Source of the DNA: Halalkalibacter oceani
GTDB lineage: Bacteria; Bacillota; Bacilli; Bacillales; Bacillaceae_D
NCBI RefSeq assembly: GCF_023715605.1
Contig: NZ_JAMBOL010000003.1
Span: 310,001 to 374,000 of the forward strand
DNA length: 64,000 bases
Reading direction: 5' to 3'
Numbering within the stretch: position 1 is the first letter of the stretch; every line of letters starts with the position of its first letter. A program made the translations under genes and the position numbers. The notes under the pieces were generated by a model. That model worked only from the letters and a program-made list of their open reading frames with translations, ran no database searches and was not told the DNA's origin. This document shows, one piece after another, positions 53,915 through 58,286 of this stretch.

Positions 53915-53960
53915 AAAAAAAAAGCCGCTTCAACAGGCAAAAGGCCTATTAAAGCAGCTT
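53915..53960 (-). terminator. Terminator of the ZIP transporter gene
   Basis: AAGCTGCTTTAATAGGC and GCCTGTTGAAGCGGCTT pair on the minus strand around CTTTT, followed by nine T. The stop codon of the transporter lies at the foot of the stem. Confidence 0.9.
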
Positions 53961-54768
53961 AAATAAACAGCAGCAAACTAATCGCCATGACGGCCATTCC
54001 GCCGATCAGGCCGTAAATCGATGTATGGGCTTCATCATATTTTTTCGCCGCCGGGAGCAGTTCGTCGAGCGAAATGAAAACCATGATTCCCGCCACCGCT
54101 GCAAAAATGATGCCGAACATCACATCATTTAAATACGGCATTAAAAACAAAAAGGCGACGAGCGCGCCGACCGGCTCGGCAAGACCGGAAAGAAATGATA
54201 GTCTGAACGCTTTCTTTTTGCTTCCGGTCGCGAAATAAATCGGCACCGAGACGGCGATCCCTTCAGGAATATTGTGAATCGCGATCGCCACGGCGATGGC
54301 AATCCCGAGCGCCGGGTCCTGCAAAGCCGAAGTGAATGTCGCAATGCCTTCAGGGAAGTTGTGGATCGCAATCGCCAGCGCGGTGAACGTCCCCATTTTC
54401 AATAGCTGGCGATCCTTCACCTCCGGCTTTGCTGTTTCCATATCCTCGACTTTCTTGATCTCGTGCGGGTTTCCCTGCTTTGGAAGAAGCCGGTCAATCG
54501 CCGCTGTCAGCACCATTCCGCCGAAGAAGCCGGCGGCCGTCAGCCAATGGCCAAGCTCATTTCCAAGCGAAGCAACGAGCGCGTCCTGCGCCTTCATAAA
54601 GATTTCCACCATCGATACATAAATCATCACCCCGGCTGAAAAGCCTAAGGAAAAGGACAAAAATTTCGTATTTGTTGTTGAAGTAAAAAAGGCAAGCAGA
54701 CTGCCAATGCCTGTTGCAAGACCTGCCATTAAAGTTAAACCAAATGCCAAAAGCAGATTTTCCGTCAT
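53959..54768 (-). CDS. zupT: ZIP-family zinc/divalent metal transporter
   Basis: 269 residues with eight likely membrane segments. The two ZIP metal-site motifs are HNFPEG (136-141, helix 4) and HNIPEG (165-170, helix 5), as in ZupT, and a charged cytoplasmic loop lies between helices 3 and 4 (about 95-122). It takes up Zn2+ and other divalent metals. No Zur box was recognised upstream. Separated from the ATP-grasp cluster by 149 bases. Confidence 0.9.
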   Translation of the reverse strand: MTENLLLAFGLTLMAGLATGIGSLLAFFTSTTNTKFLSFSLGFSAGVMIYVSMVEIFMKAQDALVASLGNELGHWLTAAGFFGGMVLTAAIDRLLPKQGNPHEIKKVEDMETAKPEVKDRQLLKMGTFTALAIAIHNFPEGIATFTSALQDPALGIAIAVAIAIHNIPEGIAVSVPIYFATGSKKKAFRLSFLSGLAEPVGALVAFLFLMPYLNDVMFGIIFAAVAGIMVFISLDELLPAAKKYDEAHTSIYGLIGGMAVMAISLLLFI

Positions 54769-54917: not shown

Positions 54918-56159
54918 CTAGCTGTCTGTATAGGCGACGAACATCGAGAGGTTGCCGGTGATCGCCTCTCCCACTCTGAAAAACAAACCGGCCGGCTGCC
55001 CGTTCAGCACATGCGAGCCAATCAGCAGCTTGCCTGTATAGGGGCCGTCCCATGTCGCTACCGTCTGCTCAGGCATCGGAAAATAGTGCTGATAAATCAC
55101 TTCCTGATCCTGATAATGATCAACATCCTCATCAAGAACCGCCCCATTTTCCACAATCTGAATCCCGCCACCTTCCCGGCCCAACACCGGCTTTTTCACA
55201 TAGGAAGACATTCCGTTCGCCGTATGGAAGGTCGGTAAAAAATACGTATCGATCGCCCTCTGTTCACTGCGCGAATACCATTCGTGACGCTTTTCCCAAA
55301 TCAAGGCGAATACTGCCTTTGACTGCATCAGCAAAGCGGAAGGCGGGTTAATGATTTTTAGCTTGCTGTCAAGCAAATGGACGAGAAATTGCTCGCCTAT
55401 CAATTCCCCGGTATGGCTCTTTTCCGCGAGAAAATAGTCAAGCGGGTACAACCGGTAGAGAAATTCGATTTTTTCGCCATTCGGCGTCCGCACATCGTCT
55501 TTTTCCACAACGATCTCCTCCAGCGGGATGTATCTCGCTTTCTGTGGATAATGCTTCATCAGCAAACCGACCGTTTGCTTGTCTTCTTCATGCCAGTCGG
55601 CACAAGTAAAATAAAGCGTATCGCCGCTGCCGATCTGATAATCCTTGATCACTTGATTCCACGCTTCTGCCAGCTTTTTTGTTAGACCGGCATTCGGATT
55701 GCGCGCTCCATGCTCGCGGCAGATCACCTCCTGGGCGACAGCCGCCTCAACGAGACCGACCGGTGTATCGGTATTGGCCTCAATCACCTTTAAGCCGTCT
55801 GCCGAAGCGATGAAATCAAAGCGGCAAAAGTAGGAAAATGCCGTTTTCACCTCGGCTAACAGCAGATCCCAAACATAAACGGAAATCCCCAGCCGATGGA
55901 TCAGCGAATGATCGGCGAGAATGCGCTGATACGTTTTCGCCAAAATATCGTATACGGCGCGCGAAGCATTTTCGACTTCCTGAACGAGCGAAGCCGGCAC
56001 GCGGAGCAAAGAATCGCTCATATATTGATTGTCCTCATAGTTTTCGTACAATGTCGCCCACGTAAAGCCCTCGCTGGCGACCTTCCGCTCAAGCTCCAGC
56101 CACCTTTTCAGGTACGCTTCCTCAGAAAATGGCTCTGTTAATGATTGATAGGGTAGCAT
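54918..56159 (-). CDS. Glutathionylspermidine-synthase-like ATP-grasp ligase, paralogue 2
   Basis: 413 residues of the GSP_synth / YgiC-YjfC family. The N-terminal half is the pre-ATP-grasp part (FCRFDFIASADGLKVIEANTDTPVGLVEA); the C-terminal half is the ATP-grasp (KPVLGREGGGIQIVENG glycine-rich loop, then LLIGSHVLNGQPAGLFFRVGEAITGN). There is no amidase domain. The enzyme should ligate an amine to an activated carboxylate; Bacillaceae lack glutathione, so the true substrate is unknown. It lies 13 bases after the DUF350 gene. Confidence 0.87.
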   Translation of the reverse strand: MLPYQSLTEPFSEEAYLKRWLELERKVASEGFTWATLYENYEDNQYMSDSLLRVPASLVQEVENASRAVYDILAKTYQRILADHSLIHRLGISVYVWDLLLAEVKTAFSYFCRFDFIASADGLKVIEANTDTPVGLVEAAVAQEVICREHGARNPNAGLTKKLAEAWNQVIKDYQIGSGDTLYFTCADWHEEDKQTVGLLMKHYPQKARYIPLEEIVVEKDDVRTPNGEKIEFLYRLYPLDYFLAEKSHTGELIGEQFLVHLLDSKLKIINPPSALLMQSKAVFALIWEKRHEWYSRSEQRAIDTYFLPTFHTANGMSSYVKKPVLGREGGGIQIVENGAVLDEDVDHYQDQEVIYQHYFPMPEQTVATWDGPYTGKLLIGSHVLNGQPAGLFFRVGEAITGNLSMFVAYTDS

Positions 56160-56172
56160 CGCAAGCCTCCTT

Positions 56173-56589
56173 TTAATAGCTGATCGTCGCAGCGACGATC
56201 AGACCGACAAGGACCGATACGCCGCCGAGCAAGAGGCCGACTGCCGTGTTGCCGTTTTCAACCTCTTTCGTTACATTCGTTTTGCGCGTCAGTCCGTATT
56301 CAATGACGAGATGAAGGACAATTTGAATCACGATCGCGATAAAAGCCCAAATGATCAAATCAAGTAAATTTATCGAGTGACGAATCGCCGACTGCAGCAC
56401 GACGACGACCCCGGCCATTTTTCCGAGCAGCTTTAACGTCACGGCGATATTGCCGCTCTTTATCAGCTTTCTTTCGGAATACGGGGTGATCAGCTTGAAA
56501 ATATACGTCGCTATCGCGAATAAGGCGAGGGCGACAAGCAAATAAATGAGAAACCGATCGAGAGTATCCAAATAATAGGAAATGTTCAT
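56173..56589 (-). CDS. DUF350 (YjfL-type) membrane protein
   Basis: 138 residues, four hydrophobic segments in two homologous halves. The paired DUF350 marks are SGNIAVTLKLLGKMAGVVVVL and NGNTAVGLLLGGVSVLVGLIVAATI. In E. coli the same family (YjfL) lies next to the ATP-grasp gene yjfC. Here it is placed one base after paralogue 1 and 13 bases before paralogue 2, which argues for a joint function. Its role (channel or flippase-like) is not known. Confidence 0.87.
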   Translation of the reverse strand: MNISYYLDTLDRFLIYLLVALALFAIATYIFKLITPYSERKLIKSGNIAVTLKLLGKMAGVVVVLQSAIRHSINLLDLIIWAFIAIVIQIVLHLVIEYGLTRKTNVTKEVENGNTAVGLLLGGVSVLVGLIVAATISY

Positions 56590-56590
56590 G

Positions 56591-57817
56591 TTATACTCCT
56601 TTCACTCCACAAGGTAAGAAATAAGCCAGATTATCGGTAATTTGCGCTCCGGCTCGAATGCCGAACGCGCTTGCTTTTCCATTGACAATAAAGCTGCCAA
56701 ACAATAGATGAGCCTGCTTTTCACCTTTTTCTGTCCGGATCGTCCCGGAAGGCAGCTGACAGAAGGCTTGATACACTTTTTCATAATGCTCATAGCTCGC
56801 CGCCTGTTTTTCGCCCAAAAGCTTGCCGTGCTGCTTAATCTCGACGGTATCTCCTTCTCGACCGAAAACGGGCTTCGCCACATAGCGTTCACCTGATTCG
56901 ATAAACGGCTCCTCATCCAAATAGGTCGGTAAAAAATAACGGCTGATCGTCCGATGCTCAGCAGCCGTAAAATAAGGTGACTGCTGCTCATGCATTCCCC
57001 AGATTGCCGCCAGCACTGCCTTGCTTTGCAGCAAAAAAGCAGAAGCCGGGTTCAGCATCGCCACCTTTTTTTCCCGGACGAGGTTCATAAATTCAAGCCC
57101 GATCGGAAACCGATCATCTGCTTCGTCGTCGATCAGCGCTTCAAGTGGATATGTATGTCTGTACACAACATCAATTCGGCGCCCTGCTTGATCAAAAACG
57201 CCGACTCCTTCTACAATTTGCAGGTGATCGAGAGCGACGAAGGCGGCGTCTTTCAGCTGCGTGATTTTCAATAAATAGTTCATCGTTTCCCGATCTTCAA
57301 TATCATCCGCATGAGCGGTAAAGACAACATAAGGATGACGTTCCAAAGCGATTGACGTCATACTGTGGTAAATGCTGTTGCGGATCGCCCGCCCAAGCCG
57401 CTCCTCTTCGCCTTCATTCGGATCGGCAGCAGCAAAGGACCGGCAAACACGGCCGTTCACCTCAAACAGCTCGCGAATAAAGGTCGGCGTATCGGCGTTA
57501 AATTCCAGCAGCTTGAAGCCGTCTTTCACCTGGACAAAATCAAAGCGCCCGATCACCGTCTCATAAGGGATCGTTTTCATTTGCAGAAAGGGCACCGCTT
57601 TGACTGGAAAGCCGAGCTCATGCAAGGTCTCGACAGGAGCGTTCCGCAGCAGCGGCGCGATCTTGGCAAAAATCCGATAAGCAGCCTCGGTCGCCGTACG
57701 AATCTCTGCTACTTGTCCCGCTTCAAGCAAATAGCAATCATACAAGGCATATTCCTCGCCGTAGAGGCGGTCCCAAAAAGCGGGGATCTCCTGATAAAAC
57801 AGATCCCGGCTGCTCAT
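56591..57817 (-). CDS. Glutathionylspermidine-synthase-like ATP-grasp ligase, paralogue 1
   Basis: 408 residues of the same family as the gene at 54918: GRFDFVQVKDGFKLLEFNADTPTFIRELFEVNG in the N-terminal half and VAKPVFGREGDTVEIKQHG plus LLFGSFIVNGKASAFGIRAGAQITDN in the ATP-grasp half. The two differ widely outside the motifs, so they are old paralogues and may use different substrates or work as partners. The ATG at 57817 is taken (GGCGGG before it); a GTG at 57841 would overlap the lipoprotein gene. Confidence 0.86.
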   Translation of the reverse strand: MSSRDLFYQEIPAFWDRLYGEEYALYDCYLLEAGQVAEIRTATEAAYRIFAKIAPLLRNAPVETLHELGFPVKAVPFLQMKTIPYETVIGRFDFVQVKDGFKLLEFNADTPTFIRELFEVNGRVCRSFAAADPNEGEEERLGRAIRNSIYHSMTSIALERHPYVVFTAHADDIEDRETMNYLLKITQLKDAAFVALDHLQIVEGVGVFDQAGRRIDVVYRHTYPLEALIDDEADDRFPIGLEFMNLVREKKVAMLNPASAFLLQSKAVLAAIWGMHEQQSPYFTAAEHRTISRYFLPTYLDEEPFIESGERYVAKPVFGREGDTVEIKQHGKLLGEKQAASYEHYEKVYQAFCQLPSGTIRTEKGEKQAHLLFGSFIVNGKASAFGIRAGAQITDNLAYFLPCGVKGV

Positions 57818-57821
57818 GTGC

Positions 57822-58286
57822 TTACCCGCCAAAGGAACCACCGCTTCCCATTCCGGAGCGTGGATTCGTTGCCCGGTTTGGCGTTCTCTGCTGATCGTTG
57901 TCCTGCCTTGGCGGCTGGGTCACATTTTGATCCGGACGGTTCGGCGCCGGCTGTCTCACCTGCCCCGAGCCACCGCCCATTGCTCGTCCGGCCATAAAAG
58001 CAGCGATCGTCGGGAACCACATTCCTCCGTAATAATAATGGCCATAGTTCTCGTTGCCTTCTTCGGCGCATTGATAGCCTTGCGCTTCTTCATCCCACGT
58101 CCATGTCTGGCAATCAGCTTCTTCCGGTGATGGCAGCGCCGCCGGATCAGGCTCAACCTCCTCGGTTTCCGGAGCAACAGAAAAGAACTCCTCCTGAATC
58201 CCCTGCGAGCAGCCTGTCACGCCTAAAAGTGCGACGCTGGACCCGACCAGTCCTTTCAACAGCCGGTCTGTTTTCGGCTTTTTCAT
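57822..58286 (-). CDS. Lipoprotein (YgiB/YjfM-like) with Gly-rich C-terminus
   Basis: 154 residues. The lipobox GVTGC gives a lipidated cysteine at about 26. An acidic linker, a compact Cys/Trp/Tyr segment (CQTWTWDEEAQGYQCAEE then HYYYGGMW) and a Pro/Asn/Gln-rich tail follow, ending GMGSGGSFGG. The E. coli ygiBC and yjfLMC loci pair a DUF1190 lipoprotein with a GSP-synthase-like enzyme, and this gene has that place and appearance. It heads the four-gene operon, four bases before paralogue 1. Confidence 0.8.
   Translation of the reverse strand: MKKPKTDRLLKGLVGSSVALLGVTGCSQGIQEEFFSVAPETEEVEPDPAALPSPEEADCQTWTWDEEAQGYQCAEEGNENYGHYYYGGMWFPTIAAFMAGRAMGGGSGQVRQPAPNRPDQNVTQPPRQDNDQQRTPNRATNPRSGMGSGGSFGG

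Follow-up and report, generated by a model that had tools for sequence, protein, structure and literature searches.

The closest described relatives of the system analysed here are two Escherichia coli gene sets, ygiB-ygiC and yjfL-yjfM-yjfC, whose ligases YgiC and YjfC are named peptide--spermidine ligases in RefSeq. Operons in which a glutathionylspermidine synthetase (GSPS)-like ATP-grasp ligase, DUF350, a DUF1190 lipoprotein and a K+ channel are linked with PspA are described in the main text of PMC11237479. The gene set and the class of enzyme activity are already known. YgiC/YjfC-type ligases are common, and we found no established physiological substrate for them in the literature searched. 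Here we describe a set of this kind in a 64,000-nucleotide stretch of the Halalkalibacter oceani genome (the window), in which a lipoprotein, ligase A, a DUF350 membrane protein and ligase B are encoded in this order along the minus strand (Table 1). We propose that the set serves for peptide-amine ligation and that its target is the exported partner encoded with it, the lipoprotein: the carboxylate of the C-terminal Gly-Gly tail would be joined to an amine before export. We give this reading a probability of about one half. The sequences show the genes, their families, the catalytic residues and the conserved tail with its position; the tail as substrate, the kind of amine, the timing and the purpose are inferred.

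All four open reading frames (ORFs) are present on one strand and are separated by 4, 1 and 13 bases, in keeping with the spacing of 1-13 bases reported in an earlier note on this DNA. The 4-base gap between the lipoprotein and ligase A genes assumes the ATG start at 57817; with the GTG at 57841, which is the choice made in the ORF list, the two genes overlap. Ligase A and DUF350 are 1 base apart, and DUF350 and ligase B 13 bases apart. Both ligases match PF03738 (207.8 and 198.3 bits for A and B, cut-off 29.3) and the small membrane protein matches PF03994 (121.9 bits, cut-off 26). The best sequence matches of both window ligases are the solved YgiC and YjfC chains, with E values against YgiC (7uk8) of 3.1e-14 for ligase A and 1.6e-22 for ligase B, and both are single-domain ligases similar to YgiC. 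The parallel that the earlier note drew with the two E. coli sets holds, in that the gene order agrees and both E. coli partner proteins (of the ygiB and yjf sets) end in Gly-Gly. The co-occurrence that it wished to see checked goes beyond chance: the set is found again in close relatives, and of 398 genomes sampled from the class, 169 contain PF03738.

Table 1. Features of the four-gene set and their positions in the window.
Feature	Position	Strand	Description
Lipoprotein (partner)	57822..58286	minus	154 aa; lipobox-like VTGC (...LLGVTGC), Cys26; C-terminal tail NPRSGMGSGGSFGG
Tail codons (NPRSGMGSGGSFGG)	57825..57866	minus	ends in the codon pair GGC GGG; putative end of the substrate
Ligase A	56591..57817	minus	GSP_synth (PF03738), predicted ATP-grasp; ATG 57817 preferred, GTG 57841 possible
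DUF350 (YjfL-type) small membrane protein	56173..56589	minus	138 aa; PF03994
Ligase B	54918..56159	minus	GSP_synth (PF03738), predicted ATP-grasp; 413 aa; deep clade other than that of ligase A

An alignment of 111 ligases, drawn from 104 loci, was made against the C-terminal portion of the E. coli glutathionylspermidine enzyme Gss. At ten Gss positions that we take to be catalytic or substrate-binding (R316, D318, E330, N332, E391, E392, K498, K533, R538 and R598), both window ligases are identical to Gss in nine. At the remaining position, Glu392, both carry Asp, as do 108 of the 111 aligned ligases. The ATP-grasp catalytic residues, whose loss the earlier note had regarded as fatal to its proposal, are therefore kept.

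The feature proposed to tie the lipoprotein to the ligases is its C-terminus. Ligase neighbours were surveyed in the window, 76 stretches from genomes of the class (one 10-base stretch was left out), 22 stretches from plasmid records of other bacteria and E. coli K-12, using a positional rule that is blind to the tail: a same-strand ORF of at least 40 amino acids with its stop at most 200 nucleotides from the start of the ligase ORF. A neighbour ending in Gly-Gly was found for 72 of the 111 ligases; for the remaining long ORFs of these loci, which served as controls, the count was 7 of 512. When the end could be any two of Gly or Ser, the counts were 86/111 for the ligases and 18/512 for the controls. 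The ligases missed by the rule include second ligases and loci in which DUF350 or another gene intervenes (L010-L012, L015, L017, L040, L041 and L049).

Among new loci from an order-wide search, the same distance rule found a Gly-Gly neighbour in 24 of 25; at the sole miss (L142), a partner ending KGFGG sits two genes upstream (L184). The loci returned by this search and by a phylum-wide one are the best-scoring loci and not a random draw. None of 14 low-scoring PF03738 hits had such a neighbour. Other lipobox proteins of the sampled loci end in Gly-Gly in 2 of 65 cases, one of which is the second partner copy in L015, and other gene-like ORFs do so in 6 of 1046. Thus, the terminal Gly-Gly is conserved beside these ligases, and the controls (7/512 and 2/65) disfavour an origin by chance or as a general habit of lipoproteins.

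To describe the tails themselves, we assembled a catalogue of 103 partners, one for each locus; because it was partly filled by way of the Gly-Gly ends, its counts are descriptive and biased. Gly-Gly ends occur in 71 of the 84 partners from Bacilli (the others being 8 Ser, 4 with Gly in another context and 1 IDID) and in 13 of the 19 from other bacteria (4 Ser, 1 CCG and 1 SIHA). In Bacilli, Gly occupies the last position in 89% of partners and the penultimate one in 85%, whereas from -15 to -3 its share nowhere exceeds 44%; among the last 15 positions, conservation is strongest at the final two. Of the 103 partners, 91 contain an inner G-hydrophobic-G motif within their last 48 residues. Three partners from cyanobacterial plasmids end in GGASS or GGSSS.

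The proteins that bear these tails differ. The bodies of the 85 partners that were long enough for comparison fall into 19 BLAST groups, 16 of which have members ending in Gly-Gly. The window lipoprotein has its nearest named match in Halalkalibacter oceani (98% identity), and its homologues in close relatives (L003-L009) carry the same tail. Unlike ubiquitin-like modifiers that end in Gly-Gly, the lipoprotein shows no ubiquitin-like domain, its sole Pfam match up to 0.1 being a weak one to DUF1190. In Alkalihalobacterium chitinilyticum, a copy of the lipoprotein and DUF350 genes without a ligase (L006, 5833-7050) keeps the Gly-Gly end; this genome has its complete set on a different contig. 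Mapped on the ligase tree, the 19 non-Gly-Gly tips of 102 require 11 changes of tail type, whereas 500 shuffles required 17.6 on average and 14 at minimum. Judged by these sequences, tail type follows the ligase tree, through shared descent or co-evolution, which the comparison does not separate. An acidic stretch reminiscent of a calcium-binding loop, for example DNDGYCDDDG, also occurs in many Bacilli partners (L021-L023, L033, L044 and others). L015 encodes a tandem pair of partner lipoproteins, each of which ends in Gly-Gly.

In the mechanism we favour, ligase A, and perhaps also ligase B, would act in the cytosol, binding the freshly synthesized lipoprotein at its unfolded C-terminal tail and phosphorylating the carboxylate of the last Gly with ATP. 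The activated Gly would then be joined to an amine, most probably spermidine or another polyamine. As the partner leaves the cytosol and no export signal is evident in the ligase, the modification would have to come before translocation. The lipoprotein would subsequently be exported and lipidated. Its C-terminus, cationic and capped as an amide, would be displayed in the envelope, where the lipoprotein may work together with the membrane protein DUF350 and in relatives also with a K+ channel. One might speculate that the cationic cap ties the free end of the lipoprotein to anionic polymers or lipids, or that it acts on the channel. There is precedent for the chemistry in the joining of the C-terminal carboxylate of the SUMO protein Pmt3 to spermidine using ATP, as far as this is set out in PMC12270671. 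The host genome has the AdoMet (S-adenosylmethionine) decarboxylase and spermidine synthase families. AdoMet decarboxylase is found in 151 of 169 ligase-positive genomes compared with 141 of 229 ligase-negative ones, in a hand tally uncorrected for kinship.

Several observations weigh against this reading. The export order is awkward, with an exported partner and a ligase that has no evident export signal. Of the catalogued partners, 19 of 103 do not end in Gly-Gly (12 end in Ser, 5 have Gly in another context, 1 ends SIHA and 1 IDID), and we accordingly reject a universal terminal Gly as a strict rule. Of the 13 hits from the phylum-wide sample that scored 75 bits or more, only 4 have a Gly-Gly neighbour, one of them (L145) chance-like; 8 of 13 have a neighbour ending in two of Gly or Ser (L157 being chance-like), and the tails of these hits often have the inner motif yet end in Ser or Ala-Ser in several cases. 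The terminal Gly conservation that the earlier note called for in orthologous loci was thus found beside most ligases and in nearly all of the new loci, but not in the 19 catalogued partners. Finally, 18 of the 169 ligase-positive genomes lack AdoMet decarboxylase in the hand tally, so that spermidine of the cell's own making cannot serve as the amine throughout, and the idea of spermidine as the amine everywhere is unsupported.

The same enzymes could instead make a small soluble peptide-polyamine metabolite from another peptide, which the partner, itself unmodified, would sense, bind or export. This alternative, which we regard as unlikely but plausible, removes the topology problem, and Gss and trypanothione synthetase, both matched by sequence, are relatives of the ligase. 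These two enzymes act on the tripeptide glutathione, which to our knowledge Bacillaceae lack. The main text of PMC11237479 also treats such operons as polyamine metabolism and DUF1190 as a metal-chelating lipoprotein. A soluble product would, however, leave unexplained both the conserved C-terminus on unrelated bodies and the Gly-Gly kept in the L006 copy remote from the ligases. That ligase-less pair of lipoprotein and DUF350 would be easier to understand if the tail were no substrate but a docking or sorting signal for DUF350, a chaperone, a channel or a non-catalytic ligase, as would the Ser at the end of some tails and the inner G-hydrophobic-G motif, which exceeds the needs of a substrate end. 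We consider such a role doubtful, since the catalytic residues of the ligase are conserved, the strongest conservation falls on the final two positions, and DUF350 is absent from 19 of 82 loci examined, most of which still have the tail.

It is also conceivable, if quite unlikely, that ligation does occur but to an amine other than a polyamine (an amino acid, an aminosugar, a wall peptide or an aminolipid), anchoring the protein. The genomes without AdoMet decarboxylase fit this possibility, as does the presence of two ligases of different clades in one set, as if there were two amines or two steps. The naming of the E. coli members as peptide-spermidine ligases speaks for a polyamine, as does the retention as Glu/Asp of Gss E391/E392, which we presume to lie near the amine site. 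We regard it as very improbable that Shine-Dalgarno-like codons ahead of the ligase gene give rise to the Gly-Gly as a by-product, or that the pair merely belongs to a flexible Ser/Gly spacer. GAGG or GGGGG does occur in 39 of 84 Gly-Gly codon pairs, and the window pair GGC GGG directly precedes the ligase start. However, neither string is found in the other 45 of 84 pairs, Gly-Gly is retained in 11 loci where the next gene is not a ligase, control ORFs rarely end this way, and the tail ends are much richer in Gly than the rest of the tail. The codon pairs and the 11 loci therefore disfavour a Shine-Dalgarno origin.

The two ligases of the window belong to different deep clades of the tree. 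Ligase A clusters with single-copy ligases from Bacillaceae-like loci (support 0.735). Ligase B groups with four ligases (support 0.993), one of which comes from a Bacillus subtilis plasmid. The tree rules out a recent duplication of the two. The two-ligase arrangement occurs in 15 distinct loci (the window, L003, L004, L005, L007, L008, L009, L113, L174-L176 and L178-L181). The earlier note's picture of two ligases flanking one membrane protein is thus accurate for the window but is not a trait of the system as a whole, being limited to one clade. In 9 of the 15 loci (L004, L005, L008, L113, L174, L175, L176, L178 and L181) a K+ channel gene with a TVGYGD motif follows ligase B, the ORF in L175 appearing broken. 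Near the window set we found no K+ channel-filter gene. Across all loci, 19 of 104 have such a gene on the same strand at a distance of at most 3.5 kb, a count made without a control.

If ligation to the tail is correct, the second ligase of this clade might couple the polyamine, at the end still free, to another tail. The resulting lipoprotein-polyamine-lipoprotein bridge would be a protein-scale counterpart of trypanothione that tunes the K+ channel encoded in the operons of relatives, within a dedicated system for polyamine capping of Gly-Gly ends; we rate this elaboration a long shot. Single ORFs of 878 amino acids (L172, 3389-6026) and 822 amino acids (L173, 3203-5672, minus-strand coordinates) each contain two GSP_synth-like domains, have a DUF350 gene nearby and lie directly downstream of a small protein ending in Ser. 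These fusions are compatible with two steps on one substrate, without demonstrating them.

Downstream of the set on the same strand lies a gene for a ZIP (ZupT-like) transporter (window 53959-54768). We do not count it as a member of the system, as ZIP genes occur only in the window, L003, L085 and L020 among the loci. In E. coli, zupT likewise has ygiC in its vicinity.

No paper describing a tail shared by the partners was found in the literature searched, whose coverage excluded most subscription journals. The main text of PMC11237479 does not contain the word 'glycine', so the tail is not discussed there. Pederick 2023 may have proposed the idea for E. coli, and we state the novelty of the tail with that reserve. 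A conserved tail on neighbouring proteins points to a likely ligase substrate in many species together; with it, a family of orphan enzymes becomes the subject of a hypothesis open to direct test. As partners of differing bodies that end in Gly-Gly stand beside these ligases in several bacterial phyla, the modification is a candidate for a widespread one. If the proposal is true, it would represent a phylum-spanning C-terminal modification of bacterial surface proteins.

Compared with known systems, the Pmt3-spermidine conjugation described in PMC12270671 is eukaryotic and, as presented there, uses E1/E2 enzymes and no ATP-grasp ligase, so that it resembles the proposed mechanism only in how it works. 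E. coli Gss (2io7 series) has the ligase family and the catalytic positions in common with the window ligases. However, its overall match to them is weak (E 0.03 for A and 2.2e-6 for B), and the region that contacts glutathione is altered in the window ligases (S335 to Thr and A336 to Pro). They also lack the amidase domain of the bifunctional Gss: the match covered the synthetase part alone and scored far under 882, the equivalog cut-off. The window set differs from the ygi and yjf sets in lacking PspA, DUF2170 and DUF2491 genes, and the absence of PspA also separates it from the PspA-linked polyamine operons as the main text of PMC11237479 presents them. It further differs from the E. coli sets in having two ligases of different clades and a partner below the DUF1190 cut-offs (15.1 bits against 22 in Pfam, 18.4 against 223 in NCBIfam). 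A BLAST link (E<=1e-3, within the set of 85 bodies only) suggests a possible relationship of the lipoprotein body to YgiB. DUF350 is present in both the yjf and window sets. With both E. coli systems the window set shares a one-domain GSP_synth ligase beside an exported partner that ends in Gly-Gly and has an inner GG[FY]G. On the evidence of the sequences, ygiBC and yjfLMC of E. coli have a Bacillota relative in the window set.

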